A stretch of DNA of 64,000 nucleotides from Pedobacter steynii (GTDB lineage Bacteria > Bacteroidota > Bacteroidia > Sphingobacteriales > Sphingobacteriaceae), in assembly GCF_900103665.1 (NCBI RefSeq), contig NZ_FNGY01000009.1, positions 124,001-188,000 of the forward strand. The letters are read 5' to 3'. The notes under the pieces were generated by a model. That model was given only the letters and a program-made list of their open reading frames with translations, was not told the origin of the DNA and ran no database searches. The stretch's first letter is position 1. Each line of letters begins with the position of its first letter. The position numbers and the translations under genes are program-made. Positions 34,880 to 41,965 of this stretch are shown here, piece by piece.

Positions 34880-37246
34880 TTACTTTTTCAATGTCGTTTC
34901 AAACAGTTTAAAGATCCTTTTATACTCATCTGTCCAGCTCGATGGCTCAACAAAACCGTGGTCTTCAACTGGGTAAACGGCCAGCTCCCAGTTATTTTTC
35001 CCCAATTCTATCAGTCTTTGGGAAAGTCTTACGATATCCTGGAAGTGCACATTTACGTCTACCATGCCATGGCACATCAGTAAATCCCCCTTTAAACCAT
35101 TAGCAAAATAGATCGGCGAACTGCGTTTATAAGCCAGCTCATCATTATAAGGTTCATTTAAAATATTTGAAGTATAGCCGTGGTTGTAATGTGCCCAGTC
35201 CGTAACCGACCTCAGCGCCCCTCCACTCGCAAAAACCTCCGGTTCGTTGAATAAGGCCATCAAGGTAATGAAACCGCCGTAGGAGCCGCCATATAAGCCC
35301 ACATGCTTAGGATCTACATTGTACTTCTCTATCAACATTTTCACCCCATCGACCTGATCTGTCAGGTCTTTTCCTCCCATATGTCTGTAAATCCCTGTGC
35401 GGTGATCTCTTCCATATCCGGAACTTGCCGTATAATCGATGTCAATCACCGTGTATCCATTATCTGCCAGCAAGTTATTAAACATGTATTCCCTGGAATA
35501 CTGACTCCACCAATAGTGCACATTTTGTAAATATCCGGCCCCATGTACAAATACAACTGCAGGGCGATTTGGATGCGGCTTTGATGTAGGGTAGACTCTG
35601 GCATAGACATCCGCGCCATACCGGTTCTTGAAAGAAACCAGATCTGGCTCCCTCCACTGATAAGAATTGAACTCCTTAGAAGAAGAATTTGTCACCTGCA
35701 CAGCCTTTGCTCCTGGTTTATTGGCTTGCAGGTACAACTCCCAGGGCTTGTTCATATACGAATAGTTAATGGCCAGCCATTTTTCATCGGGTGAAAGCGT
35801 CACTTCGTTTCCACCTTTCAAACTCGTGAGCTGTATCAGATTCCCTCCGTTTACGTCAAGTTTGTAAAAATGGGTAATTCCAGGATGCGTTTTATTGCCA
35901 CTGATATAAAATGTCTTTTTGTCTTTGGAAAGTTGTAGTTTTTGCACCTCCCATTTACCGGAAGTCAGCTGTTTCTTTTCTCCTGTTGTGATATTGGCCA
36001 GGTAAACGTGGCTATATCCGCTGGCTTCACTTTGAAAATAAAAGCGGTTTTGATCTACCCATCCGATATTTCTTGGTCCGATGCCAGGCCCGCCAATCCA
36101 GGCTTCATCTCTTTGGCGGTCTATGATGCTGAGGTTACCTGTTGCCGCATCCAGTTTAAGAATCCAAAGGTCCTTATTGTCCAGCGCATCGGCAACCAGG
36201 ATTGCCGCACTTCCTGATTCATTCCAGAAAGGACCACTTAGGTTTACCTGTCGGTCTTCATTCTTTTTCTTACGTTCTTCCAGTTGTTTAGGATAGTCCT
36301 TTACGTAGTCCGGAAGGTCTTTTATTCCAGGAATTTGCTCCGTATGCACGCTATATACCGTATCCCGTTGCTGATCGTAAATAAAGCTTTCATAAGTCGG
36401 TATGGGTTCCCCGACTTTAGTCCGTCCGGCAATATCTTCCGTATATCCGGAGGAAGTTACATAATTGGGAACGATGGTATTTGTTCCACCTGAAGGGGGA
36501 GTGATCAATTTATAACTTACATACCTCGCATCCGGACTGATTACCAGTCCCGTCAAAAACTTTTCTCCAAGATATAGTGCCCTTAAAGGTTTCTCTTTTG
36601 GAGAATCGTTAACCTTATCAAAGATTCCTTTGGCTGGGTTATTTTCTTTATTTTTCTTTTTTATAATGTCAAACAGATTTGTCTGATCTTCTTTTAACCA
36701 GTTACCCTGTACCAAAAGTTTCTTTTTATCCGCAGCTGCGCCTGGTTTTCCTTTCACAAAATTCGTCACCTGACGAATTTCACTGCTGTTCAGGTCCAGT
36801 AGAAAGAGGTTTTCGCCACGTTGAAAAACCACATTCCCATTTTTAAGAAAACCGGCGTTGCTTTCTCTTTCCATCGTACGGGTTAGACGCTGCTCTTTCT
36901 TTGTTTTTAAGTTGTAGAGGTAGATGTCTCCTTCTTTTTCGGCAATTCCCCTGCTGCCATTGTCGGCATACATATAACTCATCCCAATTGAGGACTCTTT
37001 AAGTTTTTCGCTGGCCTTCTCTATTTTTCCTGAAGAGACATTTACCTGATATCCTTCATTTTTCTCTTTATTTTCAGGATTCCAGTCAAAGAATACTGTT
37101 TTGCTATCGGCAGCCCAACGAAAATTGGAAGGAGCTACCCCAAGCCACTTCTGATCCCGCATGATCTTTTCAACGGTAAGAGGGGCAACTTGCTGTGCCT
37201 GTGCAGCAGTGCCTAAAAGCAGAAATAATGCAATTGATTTTTTCAT
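34880..37246 (-). CDS. S9-family serine peptidase (DPP IV/prolyl oligopeptidase-like), secreted
   Basis: The 788-residue protein has a signal peptide ending AAQAQ, a long beta-propeller region and a C-terminal alpha/beta-hydrolase. The catalytic serine is in GLYGGSYGGF, the aspartate in HGMVDVNVHF and the histidine in VEDHGF. It should cleave short peptides, probably after proline or alanine, in the periplasm. Its ATG directly abuts the stop codon of the M14 gene, so it is the third gene of a peptidase operon. Confidence 0.92.
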   Translation of the reverse strand: MKKSIALFLLLGTAAQAQQVAPLTVEKIMRDQKWLGVAPSNFRWAADSKTVFFDWNPENKEKNEGYQVNVSSGKIEKASEKLKESSIGMSYMYADNGSRGIAEKEGDIYLYNLKTKKEQRLTRTMERESNAGFLKNGNVVFQRGENLFLLDLNSSEIRQVTNFVKGKPGAAADKKKLLVQGNWLKEDQTNLFDIIKKKNKENNPAKGIFDKVNDSPKEKPLRALYLGEKFLTGLVISPDARYVSYKLITPPSGGTNTIVPNYVTSSGYTEDIAGRTKVGEPIPTYESFIYDQQRDTVYSVHTEQIPGIKDLPDYVKDYPKQLEERKKKNEDRQVNLSGPFWNESGSAAILVADALDNKDLWILKLDAATGNLSIIDRQRDEAWIGGPGIGPRNIGWVDQNRFYFQSEASGYSHVYLANITTGEKKQLTSGKWEVQKLQLSKDKKTFYISGNKTHPGITHFYKLDVNGGNLIQLTSLKGGNEVTLSPDEKWLAINYSYMNKPWELYLQANKPGAKAVQVTNSSSKEFNSYQWREPDLVSFKNRYGADVYARVYPTSKPHPNRPAVVFVHGAGYLQNVHYWWSQYSREYMFNNLLADNGYTVIDIDYTASSGYGRDHRTGIYRHMGGKDLTDQVDGVKMLIEKYNVDPKHVGLYGGSYGGFITLMALFNEPEVFASGGALRSVTDWAHYNHGYTSNILNEPYNDELAYKRSSPIYFANGLKGDLLMCHGMVDVNVHFQDIVRLSQRLIELGKNNWELAVYPVEDHGFVEPSSWTDEYKRIFKLFETTLKK

Positions 37247-38986
37247 TTAGTTTGTTTTTGAGGCCAGGCCTCCTTTTTTACTGGACACGTTTACCGTAAA
37301 TTTTGTTCCTCCTTTTACAATCCAGCGGACTGTGACATAGCCATTTCCGGGAATGTTATCGACTTTCACATTTGCGACATCTCTTTTTTGCTCTGTGCTG
37401 ATATTCAAATCTCTGTTCTCTACGATCATACCTGCAACCACATTTCCTCCGGTTAAAGATACGACATCCGGGACTTCAATATTATTTTTGATATCCTGAC
37501 TGGAATGGGTAGGAATCATCCGCTCATTGGCGACCACCGCAGTGACCTGCGAAAGACCTCCGCCAAGCTCCTTCACTTCCAACTCTGTGACCTTTAATTT
37601 TGGCGTATGGTAAGCATGATACACGCTGAATGCCATATTCCTGTGGGCATCACTTTCCAGTAAAAAGCCCGGATGTAACCGTGTGTAGGTCTTTTTGAAA
37701 CCACCAATTTCGATATCTCCATATTGAGGGTGTTTGAAAGGATGCCAGTCTACAAAAGCATCCTTCATCAGCAGGTCTTTATCAAAGGTATATTGCTGTG
37801 CCTGAGCTTTGTCATAATCCCCTTCTGTTTTGTTGTAAAGCGAATAATTTGTCCAGAGTTCATTGGAGAAAGTATAAATCCCACGACCGCCATAAAACCA
37901 ATCCAGCTCTCCTCCAAATACAGAATACATGTCCTTATACACAACCAGATAGCGATATCCCGGAAGCAATTCCTCTCCTTTCTTTCCGAGTGCATCATAC
38001 ACCCTGGCATCAAGCGCATTATAGGTATCTGCATCCTCTATTGCCCCTGGTCCTCTCAGGATCATTCCTCCGTTATTGTGATAGGATTGTGCGGCCGCTA
38101 TATTAGGATGTTTCATGGCAAATTCTGCTACGGCACGGTTTTCAGGGATAGAAAAAGGGTATTTATAAGCACCCGACTGCACATAATTTGACTGCCAGTT
38201 CCAACCCCAGTCGCGATTTGGGTCATAAAACCCCTCTCCGTCCTCATTCACCAGTCCGTCGCCGTCGTTATCAGTTCCTTCCTGCCCCAGCAATTCGTAT
38301 TCACCCTGTTCATCTGCCCCAACCAGGATCATCCTGCGGGGATCTGCAACATCAGCTCTAAACCGTCCGTTTACATTTTTTCTGCGCATCATCACAATGT
38401 GGCCATCGCCGTCGAGGTCATCAAATCCATCCTCATTTACCGAACCATCACGATCATTATCGATCGGCAACAATCCTGACCTTGGAGAATGGGCTGTATT
38501 TGCTTTATGAATAAAGCTATCCCTTGCATCCGGATTGATGGTTGGTGCAATATAAAAGGTCTTTTCTGTCAGCAAAGCCTTCACCGCGGGGTTTCCCTGC
38601 TGGAACATTTCCGCCAGATACCAGGCCGTATAAAGGGCAAATTCTGCCCCCTGAATCTCATTGGAATGAATGTTCCCATCAATATACATCGCCGGTTTTT
38701 GATCCGGGTTTCCGGATTTATGGTCTGTAATTGTCATCACCCATAGGTCTTTTCCTTCAAAGGACTTCCCCATTGAGCCCAGCTTTACCAGATCGGGATG
38801 CGCTTGCGCCAATTTTTTGCAGAGGTCTGTTAAAGCGGTATAATCGTAATATCTGTTCCAGCTAATCGGAACTTTAGGGTTCGACGGGCTACCTACCGCA
38901 GCAATAATATTTTCTGGTTTTTGAGCTTTTACCAAAGTGCTGCAAATCATTCCTGCAGCCATCAGCATTATATATTTCATCTTCAT
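37247..38986 (-). CDS. M14-family zinc carboxypeptidase, secreted, active-site intact
   Basis: From the ATG at 38986 this is a 579-residue exported protein. The M14 zinc ligands H107 and E110 lie in DGNIHSNEIQGAE; the third ligand is in QSYHNNGG and the catalytic glutamate in YTFSNELW. An acidic insert with repeated DxDxDG-like loops (DRDGSVNEDGFDDLDGDG, then DNDGDGLVNEDGEG) probably binds calcium. A C-terminal beta-sandwich follows. It should remove C-terminal residues from peptides. It lies between its degenerate paralogue and the S9 gene with gaps of 10 and 0 bp. Confidence 0.92.
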   Translation of the reverse strand: MKMKYIMLMAAGMICSTLVKAQKPENIIAAVGSPSNPKVPISWNRYYDYTALTDLCKKLAQAHPDLVKLGSMGKSFEGKDLWVMTITDHKSGNPDQKPAMYIDGNIHSNEIQGAEFALYTAWYLAEMFQQGNPAVKALLTEKTFYIAPTINPDARDSFIHKANTAHSPRSGLLPIDNDRDGSVNEDGFDDLDGDGHIVMMRRKNVNGRFRADVADPRRMILVGADEQGEYELLGQEGTDNDGDGLVNEDGEGFYDPNRDWGWNWQSNYVQSGAYKYPFSIPENRAVAEFAMKHPNIAAAQSYHNNGGMILRGPGAIEDADTYNALDARVYDALGKKGEELLPGYRYLVVYKDMYSVFGGELDWFYGGRGIYTFSNELWTNYSLYNKTEGDYDKAQAQQYTFDKDLLMKDAFVDWHPFKHPQYGDIEIGGFKKTYTRLHPGFLLESDAHRNMAFSVYHAYHTPKLKVTELEVKELGGGLSQVTAVVANERMIPTHSSQDIKNNIEVPDVVSLTGGNVVAGMIVENRDLNISTEQKRDVANVKVDNIPGNGYVTVRWIVKGGTKFTVNVSSKKGGLASKTN

Positions 38987-38996
38987 GACCTGCAAA

Positions 38997-40640
38997 TTAG
39001 AGGGATACGTCAATCATCTTACTTCCCGAAGAAGGGCTTCCTGCTTCGATACTTATTTTACCGGAACCTTTAATGAGCCAGCTCAGTTCTGTAAACCCCT
39101 TGCCCGGAATAGCCTCCAGTAATTGGCTCTTCCTGCCAGACAGAACAACCTGACCGGTACCCGTATTTATTTTTAGTGCAATTTTTTTAAGGAAATAGCT
39201 CTTTTCCCCAATTTTGGTTAACGTAGGTAAAATGCCCGTATTGACCACTTTTACAGAAACGCGGCTTAATCCCCCCTCCATCTTCTCGGTTTTAAGGCCA
39301 ATCAGATCAACCTGAGGTGCCATCGCCGCAAGAGACAGCAAAAAGTCTGTATGTTTCTTTACTATCCCTTCTACCAGCTGATAGGGAGGATTTGTCAAGA
39401 CAAAAGGATCAAGCCCTCCTACTTCTACCGTTTGTCCGGGGAAATCAGGATGGTTTAGCACTTTCCATTCTGTAAACGTGTTGGTAATGCCCTTACTCTT
39501 TGCCCAGCGCAGGTATTCTGCCGTAGGATCGTCAATCGTAAATGCTTTTTGTTTCGCTGCGCTATCTGGTTTTGCTTTAGGCAACCACCATCCCGGAGTA
39601 CTAAAACTCAACCTGCCATAATGAAAGTAAGCCCATTGGGAAAAATCACCACTTTCCGCAGCAGTTTTAGGCGCATCTTTAACCCCAATAATTTTATTGT
39701 ATTTTTCAGAAACCAATGTATTTACTTTCGCATCAGATTCAGACCAACTGCTAATGATCCTTTTTGACAATCCTGCCGGATTAACCTGTACCGGCCATGA
39801 AAGGTTATTTTGAGGACCAAAAGTAACCACAGCATATACATTAAAGGCATCATAGAGGAAATCAAACAAAGCACGGTTTTCCAATTCGGAGACCGCAAAT
39901 TCGCCTGCTCCCGGAATAAAATTCTTATAATTATAACTGGAATTTCTATTAAAATGTACACCCTCGCCTCCATCTTCATTAAAAGCCCCATCTTTATCAT
40001 TATCCAGTCCTTCCTGCATTAAAAGGTATTGTCCGGTCTCCCCCTTTGCGGCATCCGCAGGAATCAGCGCACGTGGATCTTCAGGATTGAGCCGAAAAGT
40101 GCCTGTAGGATCTGCGATTCGCATCCAGCTGATCTTTCCGTCACCATTAAGGTCATCAAATCCATCTTCTCCGCTTTTACCATCCCGGTCTCTGTCTATC
40201 ACCCTGGCATTTCCACTTCGTCCGTACTTTACTTTCGCAAAATATTGTTCCGTTGCGTCGGGGCTCATATTTGGGAAGACATAAAACGTCTGTTTATTCA
40301 AAAGATTTTTAACGCTATCTGTGCCCGAAGCAGCCAACAACTGTTCTGCAAAGCCTATTGCCAGCTCTACGCCCAGCAAATGAGTTCCCTCAACACCTCC
40401 AACCACCGCAATAGCGGGCTTCTGTTCTACTTTTCCGGTTCCAATGGTCATCATCCATACCTCTTTTCCCGAAATGGTCTTCGTTAGAGATCTGGATTTA
40501 ACCAGCGCAGGATATGTTTTAGAAAGCGCTGTAATTCTTTGCGCCAGGCGGTCGTTACTGCTGTAATCTGCCTGCGCAAAAGCCATCTGCTGGCCGGCAA
40601 ACAAGAGCAGAAACCCATTTAAAAGGTAAAGTTTCTTCAT
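38997..40640 (-). CDS. M14-fold carboxypeptidase-like protein with lost catalytic residues
   Basis: The 547-residue protein has a signal peptide ending MAFAQ and aligns throughout with the next gene's M14 enzyme, including the DRDGKSGEDGFDDLNGDG calcium-like insert and the C-terminal sandwich. Where the paralogue has HSNE, this one has EGTH (E84, H87): the two ligand types are exchanged. The third histidine region reads FGPQNN instead of YHNN, and the catalytic glutamate segment reads FSTPGW instead of FSNELW. Peptidase activity is therefore doubtful; it may bind peptides or help its partner. It is first in the three-gene peptidase operon. Confidence 0.85.
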   Translation of the reverse strand: MKKLYLLNGFLLLFAGQQMAFAQADYSSNDRLAQRITALSKTYPALVKSRSLTKTISGKEVWMMTIGTGKVEQKPAIAVVGGVEGTHLLGVELAIGFAEQLLAASGTDSVKNLLNKQTFYVFPNMSPDATEQYFAKVKYGRSGNARVIDRDRDGKSGEDGFDDLNGDGKISWMRIADPTGTFRLNPEDPRALIPADAAKGETGQYLLMQEGLDNDKDGAFNEDGGEGVHFNRNSSYNYKNFIPGAGEFAVSELENRALFDFLYDAFNVYAVVTFGPQNNLSWPVQVNPAGLSKRIISSWSESDAKVNTLVSEKYNKIIGVKDAPKTAAESGDFSQWAYFHYGRLSFSTPGWWLPKAKPDSAAKQKAFTIDDPTAEYLRWAKSKGITNTFTEWKVLNHPDFPGQTVEVGGLDPFVLTNPPYQLVEGIVKKHTDFLLSLAAMAPQVDLIGLKTEKMEGGLSRVSVKVVNTGILPTLTKIGEKSYFLKKIALKINTGTGQVVLSGRKSQLLEAIPGKGFTELSWLIKGSGKISIEAGSPSSGSKMIDVSL

Positions 40641-40750: not shown

Positions 40751-41965
40751 TTACCTGACCACTCTCCCTTTTGAATCGACGTTTACATTAAAAGGATTCA
40801 GATATTCATAGACCAATACCGCAAATTCTCTTCGGGTAATGTTACGTGATGGCTCAAATTCTGTCTTAAATCCATACGTGGTCTTCCATTTCTTTTTCAC
40901 CTCAGTCAGTGTATTTTCCGGGGACTTATTCCCGATTTTACTAACGAGATCCAAGGTGGAAGAGATCGTCATTTGTGATCCTTTATAATCTTCAAACCAG
41001 ATCTGGGCTTTATAGAAGTATTCTTTTATTGGTTCTTTGATCTCCTCAGTACTCACCTCCCTGTTTGGCACAAATGTCAGCAGCCCTGAAGAAATGGCTC
41101 CTTTTAAAAAGCCTGATAAGCCAATAAACTGAACAGCCTTCCAGTTACTGTCTGCAGCCACCACATCTTCGAATGGCAGGATAGAAAGCCGATAACTGAT
41201 CAATTCCCCCTGAATCTTTTTCAGGTTAGACTGCGAAGTCTTCAAGTCAAAAAAAGCCGCATACGCGGCCGTAGCGCCCGCCGATTGTCCCGCAGCAATA
41301 CTTTGCTGATCAGGGTTTAACACGACCAGGTTTTCCTGCCCAGGAATCAGTAAATTATATAATGGAAGGACATTTGAGCTGGAATTGTCAACGGAAAATC
41401 CAGAAGAAATGCTTGTTCTGTACAAATTATCCTTATAGTCCAGCGCTTTCCATTGTTTTTCCTTCATTTTAGGCAACAAGAGCGCTTCGTTAACTTTCCC
41501 GGAAGCATCGGCATGAACCAGTACCGCTGCCCTGATCGTCCGTCCGTCACTCAACTGGATGCTCCAGCCACCTCCTGCTCTTTTCAGTTTTGACCACTCC
41601 CTGGCCCTGATAATCGTCAGGTTTTTGGTGCTGTCGGCCCAGGTTTTAATGACCGCATTGGCACTGGTCTGGTCAATGTAGACCTTACTCGTATCCTTGA
41701 TTCCCTTCGCTTTTCTCATTCTTTTCAGAAATTCAGCTTCCAGGCCGGAGGAGAGGTTTTTATCCAGGGGATGAACTTCACTCATTTCAAAGTTTTGATT
41801 TTCCATCAACAAAATGGTCTTCACTCCTGATACCGCAGACTGAAAACCCGCACCTAAGGCATTATTCCCATTTCCAATCACCAAAACGCCCGTTTTAACC
41901 TTCTGTCCATATCCGAACTGCACCGTTAAAACAAGTATAAAAACAACAAACCATTCTTTTTTCAT
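40751..41965 (-). CDS. Secreted FAD-dependent-oxidoreductase-like protein
   Basis: From the ATG at 41965 this 404-residue protein has a signal peptide ending GYGQ, then a Rossmann-like start VLVIGNGNNALGAG followed by an acidic-ended strand (ILLMENQN), as in FAD-dependent oxidoreductases of the PF12831 type sometimes labelled xanthan lyase. The glycine motif is loose, G-N-G-N-N-A in place of GxGxxG, so cofactor binding is uncertain. AAGQSAGATAAYAA resembles the second FAD contact. The C-terminus (NITRREFAVLVYEYLNPF) looks like one S-layer-homology-type repeat. The substrate is unknown. It is divergent from the aldehyde dehydrogenase gene. Confidence 0.6.
   Translation of the reverse strand: MKKEWFVVFILVLTVQFGYGQKVKTGVLVIGNGNNALGAGFQSAVSGVKTILLMENQNFEMSEVHPLDKNLSSGLEAEFLKRMRKAKGIKDTSKVYIDQTSANAVIKTWADSTKNLTIIRAREWSKLKRAGGGWSIQLSDGRTIRAAVLVHADASGKVNEALLLPKMKEKQWKALDYKDNLYRTSISSGFSVDNSSSNVLPLYNLLIPGQENLVVLNPDQQSIAAGQSAGATAAYAAFFDLKTSQSNLKKIQGELISYRLSILPFEDVVAADSNWKAVQFIGLSGFLKGAISSGLLTFVPNREVSTEEIKEPIKEYFYKAQIWFEDYKGSQMTISSTLDLVSKIGNKSPENTLTEVKKKWKTTYGFKTEFEPSRNITRREFAVLVYEYLNPFNVNVDSKGRVVR

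Follow-up and report, generated by a model that had tools for sequence, protein, structure and literature searches.

A catalytically dead M14 carboxypeptidase homologue encoded beside an active M14 partner in several bacterial phyla

The 64,000-nucleotide stretch of Pedobacter steynii DNA analysed here (the window) contains two adjacent genes for homologues of the M14 carboxypeptidases, and only one of the two proteins carries the residues of a working active site. This raised the question of why a protein stripped of its catalytic residues is kept, and whether it is kept for the sake of its neighbour.

The M14 fold and the catalytic positions

The gene at 38997-40640 (minus strand, ATG start) encodes a pseudo-carboxypeptidase of 547 amino acids, consisting of a signal-like N-terminus, a dead M14 domain and a C-terminal beta domain. 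Its match to PF00246 (E-value 1.4e-15, 58.2 bits against a curated cut-off of 21.6) established its homology to the M14 family, and its predicted structure (pLDDT 90.8) was superposed on carboxypeptidase T (6f79) with a Z-score of 31.4 and an rmsd of 2.8 over 291 aligned residues. Foldseek matched the same model to 7aqp with an E-value of 4e-15. When the genome was searched with this protein at E 0.001, two matches were obtained, the protein itself and its neighbour at 37247-38986; neither M14 protein (547 or 579 amino acids) had a match in NCBIfam at E-values up to 1. The fold and a signal-like N-terminus were kept, in line with the preliminary description, together with the Asp-rich ("calcium-like") loops at residues ~149-163 and ~210-223, which are conserved in dead and active proteins. 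Residue numbers refer to the full protein, and alignment A1 starts at residue 2.

The active M14 carboxypeptidase partner (37247-38986, minus strand, 579 amino acids) is encoded directly downstream, after a gap of 10 nt, and carries H107, E110, H303 and E376. Its ATG start is probable; counted from an upstream TTG, the frame would reach 39013. It matched PF00246 with an E-value of 4.6e-38, and HMMER aligned two stretches of its profile with carboxypeptidase T, between them covering the HxxE motif, the third His and the catalytic Glu. Its predicted structure was weaker (pLDDT 77.2) and had the same fold as the 547-residue protein, with 1kwm as the best match (Z 26.2, rmsd 2.9, 266 residues aligned). 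Among the 132 partner rows, 129 had the whole catalytic quartet, namely 103 of 106 from the first two sources (the scan of genome contigs and the genomes of the window's phylum) and 26 of 26 from the Planctomycetota sample. The low-pLDDT loops of this active subunit were also considered as a hint to the partner and proved uninformative, their correlation with conservation being 0.04 over catalytic-domain blocks; the low-confidence blocks were slightly less conserved (0.69 vs 0.74).

In the joint alignment, the HSNE motif of the partner (H107..E110) is replaced by EGTH (E84..H87; 40380-40391, minus strand), the third zinc-ligand histidine H303 by G275 (39816-39818, minus strand) and the catalytic glutamate E376 by P349, exactly as had been read from the two proteins side by side. 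Of the 131 rows of the dead family in which all four columns are filled, counting that of the window protein, none kept the quartet. The first two sources supplied 105 pseudo-protein rows, 102 of them lettered at all four columns, and all 102 keep none of the residues; among the 29 Planctomycetota rows, 23 keep no catalytic residue, four a single one and two a pair. Glutamate was absent from the former catalytic column (P349) throughout the 131 rows, and the column of G275 held Gly 89, Ser 10, Thr 2 and Glu 1 in the 102 rows of the first two sources and Gly 21, Ser 4, Thr 2, Asp 1 and His 1 in the 29 Planctomycetota rows. The earlier statement that the third histidine and the catalytic glutamate are gone therefore applies to the window protein, and no row with the ordinary HxxE-containing quartet, the finding set beforehand as evidence against a pseudoenzyme, was encountered among the 131. 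Judged from these alignments, catalytic loss is a fixed trait of the family.

The exchange of the His and Glu ligands fared differently. It is present in the window protein, but E84 and H87 occur together in only 42 of the 131 rows (41/102, plus 1/29 in Planctomycetota), so that neither the swap nor the EGTH motif is conserved among orthologues. Other states at these columns were K..H, D..H, E..Q and S..H, and the exchange would thus be one state of a drifting position. Tyr354 of the partner, which by its spacing we take to correspond to CPA Tyr248, has also been lost from the dead proteins, 81 of 105 rows having proline in its column. Arg127 of carboxypeptidase A may correspond to R174, which aligns with partner R201, with R202 as an equally good candidate.

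The dead gene was under purifying selection: its dN/dS was 0.034-0.056 in six close comparisons, and that of the active gene 0.009-0.029 in the same number; two further comparisons per gene were saturated. With the fold kept, the residues lost and the gene held under selection, the protein would fit an M14 pseudopeptidase, and the preliminary reading of a pseudoenzyme, as a sequence-based statement on activity, was upheld. Counting bacterial carboxypeptidases by M14 annotation alone would give too high a number.

Two observations on individual rows may be added. The pseudo-proteins of loci L177 and L189 in the Planctomycetota sample retain two of the four residues, E110 with H303 in one and H107 with E110 in the other, and these are possible intermediates in catalytic loss. 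Loci L136-L139 contain another M14 subfamily, with open frames of 651-694 amino acids and the motif EGGRHSGE, in which no Glu was aligned at the catalytic position, probably through misalignment.

Pairing and gene order across genomes

Loci of the dead family were collected from three sources, namely 68 named loci from a scan of genome contigs, 395 genomes of the window's phylum and 199 genomes of Planctomycetota, the phylum of locus L094. Proteins were assigned as active or dead by the higher of two profile scores, the profiles including the catalytic columns. In 67 of the 68 named loci the dead gene is followed at once, on its own strand, by the active gene; the remaining locus, L067, is cut off by the end of its contig, which leaves 67 of 67 testable loci. 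These loci span Bacteroidota, Balneolota, Rhodothermota and one Planctomycetota record. Counted up to the first Met in the downstream frame, the gap within the pair was 50 nt or less in 55 of the 67.

In the 395 genomes, the active profile scored above 500 bits in 37, the next best score being 278. The dead protein was found in 36 of these 37 (own genome included), in 35 of them adjacent to the active gene; absences are soft here, because at most three candidates were scored per genome and because one dead gene is known to have been missed. That gene lies in G186, where a second, divergent active copy has its own divergent dead gene upstream that escaped the single-sequence search. The two genes of G286 lie on separate contigs. 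In G229, which has the active protein and in which no dead protein was found, the active gene begins at the contig end, and in G419 the dead gene is a piece at the contig start, beside the active gene. When 99 near relatives (own genome included) were searched with each protein, the same 13 had full orthologues of both, and no orthologue of either was found in the remaining relatives of this set; G067 carries a different M14 protein with 37-39% identity.

The order was the same in Planctomycetota, in all 27 testable pairs among the fetched loci. The 39 loci of this phylum came from 38 of 68 matching genomes and comprised 27 pairs, two dead genes cut by a contig end and 10 loci with nothing but M14 proteins from other, active subfamilies; the frequency of lone active genes is not readable from them, because they were picked by their match to the pseudo-protein profile. 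Homologous active and dead proteins are thus encoded as a conserved gene pair with near-perfect co-occurrence and gene order, and whether the dead gene always stands beside an active M14 gene, as the preliminary description suggested checking, can be answered: it does so in 67 of the 67 named loci that could be tested, in 35 of the 36 genomes sampled and in 27 of 27 testable Planctomycetota pairs.

Two active genes follow a single dead gene in L058, L064, L086, G210 and G419. The dead gene of G210 (L125, 3216-4864) is broken up into two overlapping frames and followed by two tandem active genes; the break may be a real frameshift or an assembly error. Additionally, a plasmid search returned one haloarchaeal M14 protein, from a Halomontanus rarus plasmid (L145, 7980-9641), which shares 25% identity with the dead protein, aligns over 93% of it and appears by eye to have intact catalytic residues.

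Two other neighbours were considered as parts of the unit and rejected. The S9 prolyl-oligopeptidase-type peptidase at 34880-37246 (minus strand; PF00326, 1e-40) begins 0 nt after the active M14 gene, and such a gene was present in 18 of the 68 loci, none of them from outside Pedobacter and its close kin; in 14 it lies directly downstream and in four about half a kb away. The FAD-dependent oxidoreductase-like protein at 40751-41965, with a signal-like N-terminus and a PF12831 match of 7.5e-07, has counterparts in 19 of the 68 loci, again from Pedobacter and close kin (directly upstream of the dead gene in 15, further upstream in four). Neighbouring families were clustered from open reading frames of at least 150 amino acids in flanks of up to 6 kb, with clusters retained if found in at least four loci. 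No listed cluster besides the pair was common to different lineages, each being confined to Pedobacter and its kin, Rufibacter, a Chitinophagaceae-type group or a Bacteroidales-type group. The genomic context described beforehand therefore holds for the active M14 gene, which is conserved beside the dead one, but not for the S9 gene, which is lineage-specific. Co-transcription of the three genes, also proposed, agrees with their tight spacing (10 nt and 0 nt), the common message itself being read from this spacing. A consensus for Bacteroidetes-type promoters was matched five times in the window, where 3.6 matches were expected, and never near the dead gene.

Origin of the pair

In two trees, of 107 and 100 rows, the dead and the active proteins each fell on one side of a branch, with support of 99 and 100. 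In the second tree, which included Planctomycetota rows, the dead and active clades were sisters with support of 84, other active M14 proteins lying outside; this sister relation depends on that support value and on a hand-chosen outgroup. Both trees came from quick searches with one rate matrix and hand-picked rows, with the catalytic columns kept and several long branches. The first took 27 of the 68 named loci, the second left out rows longer than 800 amino acids and locus L173, and the rows are partly non-independent, as those of L075 and L106 coincide in the first tree. Since the dead and active proteins are sister clades, the history with the fewest steps would be one duplication followed by catalytic loss in one copy, before the pair spread or diverged over the phyla.

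A proposed non-catalytic subunit

The dead cleft, too, is under selection. The most conserved 12-residue window of the dead protein, residues 338-349, had a mean modal fraction of 0.92, compared with 0.62 overall (69 rows). It lies in the former catalytic-Glu strand QWAYFHYGRLSFSTPGWW (residues 335-352; 39585-39638, minus strand), in which P349 stands in place of Glu. H340 was present in 99 of 105 rows of the first set and is often Gln or another residue in Planctomycetota. Furthermore, N231-R232 (39945-39950, minus strand) is the candidate counterpart of the Asn-Arg carboxylate anchor, a placement obtained by motif alignment and not by structure. In the first set these columns held Asn in 98 of 102 rows and Arg or Lys in 92 of 102, and in the 29 Planctomycetota rows Asn in 11, Asp in 12 and Arg or Lys in 24. 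In M14 enzymes such a pair binds the substrate carboxylate, as do Asn93-Arg94 of Csd4 (PMC4220969).

The retention of a dead M14 protein beside the same working M14 protein in several phyla suggests that the two act as a pair. In the reading that we favour, with a probability of about 0.6, two proteins make up an obligate secreted carboxypeptidase and the dead gene supplies its non-catalytic subunit. Both proteins, with their Sec-type signal-like N-termini, would be exported, and the pseudo-subunit, encoded first, would associate with the active M14 subunit. It would be unable to hold the catalytic zinc in the M14 manner or to activate water. Its fold is still that of M14, the Asn-Arg anchor has its candidate counterpart, and one wall of the cleft is newly conserved. 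With these features kept, the most likely ligand of the dead pocket would be either the C-terminus of a peptide or a loop belonging to the partner, and the pseudo-subunit could stabilise, regulate or feed the active one. From the genes we infer the contact between the two proteins, their common message and what the cleft would bind. The separation of the two genes in G286 speaks against this reading insofar as linkage is not absolute, as do the degenerate partners in two Rufibacter species described below, and conserved adjacency could also reflect a shared pathway without contact. A bolder version, which we put forward only tentatively and judge less probable than its opposite, is that of an ancient heteromeric carboxypeptidase, predating the split between the Bacteroidota group and Planctomycetota, whose reworked cleft and anchor capture peptide C-termini and pass them on to the active subunit, or else gate that subunit.

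The main rival would make the dead protein a separate factor of the same pathway, such as an inhibitor, a secretion chaperone or a guard, outside the working enzyme. The retained M14 fold would suit any of these roles, and the invariable first position of the dead gene, together with the short gaps, would suit a chaperone or guard in particular. We nevertheless regard this as unlikely, though worth serious attention, as both proteins have the full two-domain architecture and hydrophobic signal-like N-termini, which a crude test found in 97 of 101 and 108 of 108 rows of the pseudo-proteins and active proteins. Less probable again is an independent binder of peptides or matrix, merely co-regulated with the peptidase. 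Eukaryotic M14 pseudoenzymes do bind collagens extracellularly (PMC11266112), and the anchor counterpart and the reworked cleft would be in keeping with such a role, but the active gene was present wherever the dead one was found (36/36 sampled genomes, 13/13 near relatives).

A new enzyme, with a different metal or catalytic site built from E84 and H87 or else from new residues such as Y338, H340 and R343, appears very improbable. The strong conservation of the former active-site strand and the presence of E84 and H87 in the window protein would be expected of it, and a new metal site built from the exchanged ligands had been suggested beforehand. This suggestion was not borne out: the E84/H87 combination is confined to the minority of rows given above, H340 is often replaced in Planctomycetota, and among the columns filled in at least 70% of 134 rows no dead-specific His, Cys, Asp or Glu column reached a conservation of 0.88. 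Finally, a decaying pseudogene, which the loss of the catalytic residues alone might bring to mind, can practically be dismissed in view of the low dN/dS and of open frames in loci of several phyla.

The proposed non-catalytic subunit can be set beside several known systems. It shares its fold with the M14 carboxypeptidases T, A and B (PF00246) and differs from them in lacking the zinc ligands and the catalytic Glu. The combination of an M14 fold with lost catalytic residues recurs in carboxypeptidase D domain III, AEBP1/ACLP, CPXM1/2 and fungal Ecm14, to which the dead protein is likened by description; unlike these eukaryotic pseudopeptidases it is bacterial and a separate polypeptide in a two-gene unit. 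By analogy, the nearest precedent within M14 would be carboxypeptidase D domain III, which is dead, stands beside two active M14 domains and has been suggested to present substrate (PMC11266112). Csd4 of Helicobacter is likewise a bacterial M14 protein with an altered ligand motif (a QxxE..H metal site), but it keeps its metal site, catalytic Glu and activity (PMC4220969), whereas the dead protein has lost all four residues. Active and dead homologous subunits are also combined in TldD/TldE and in the M16B peptidases and mitochondrial processing peptidase, the prokaryotic M16B pairs being encoded in two-gene operons (PMC5810440 and PMC11266112). These are unrelated families with proven heterodimers, while a heterodimer of the M14 pair is proposed from its genes.

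In the first part of the M14 section of a 2024 review, the pseudopeptidases mentioned are four of vertebrates and one of yeast, and a search of the review's text for bacterial, prokaryotic or Bacteroidetes cases led only to M16B peptidases and unrelated references (PMC11266112). No bacterial pair of active and pseudo M14 proteins was found among the literature matches listed, as judged by title and beginning of the abstract, a scope outside which most subscription journals, MEROPS, CDD and InterPro lie. A bacterial dead M14 family that in our samples was never seen without its active sister offers a clean system for asking how a dead enzyme helps a live one, with the advantages of a partner known beforehand, natural variants over several phyla and, in two species of Rufibacter, a partner that is itself degenerating.

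These two species account for two of the three exceptions among the partner rows, Rufibacter glacialis having lost one catalytic residue and R. ruber three; the third is the first of the tandem partners in G419, with one residue lost. In R. glacialis (L084) Ile replaces H107, and in R. ruber (L088) Ser, Gly and Lys replace H107, E110 and H303, the frame being open in both. Because these residues are lost and no second active copy was found in either genome, a fully live partner would not be required in these species. The R. ruber pair also lies on longer branches than that of R. roseus (1.19 vs 0.25 and 0.56 vs 0.18), and it may be doubly dead, either kept as such or in the course of being lost.
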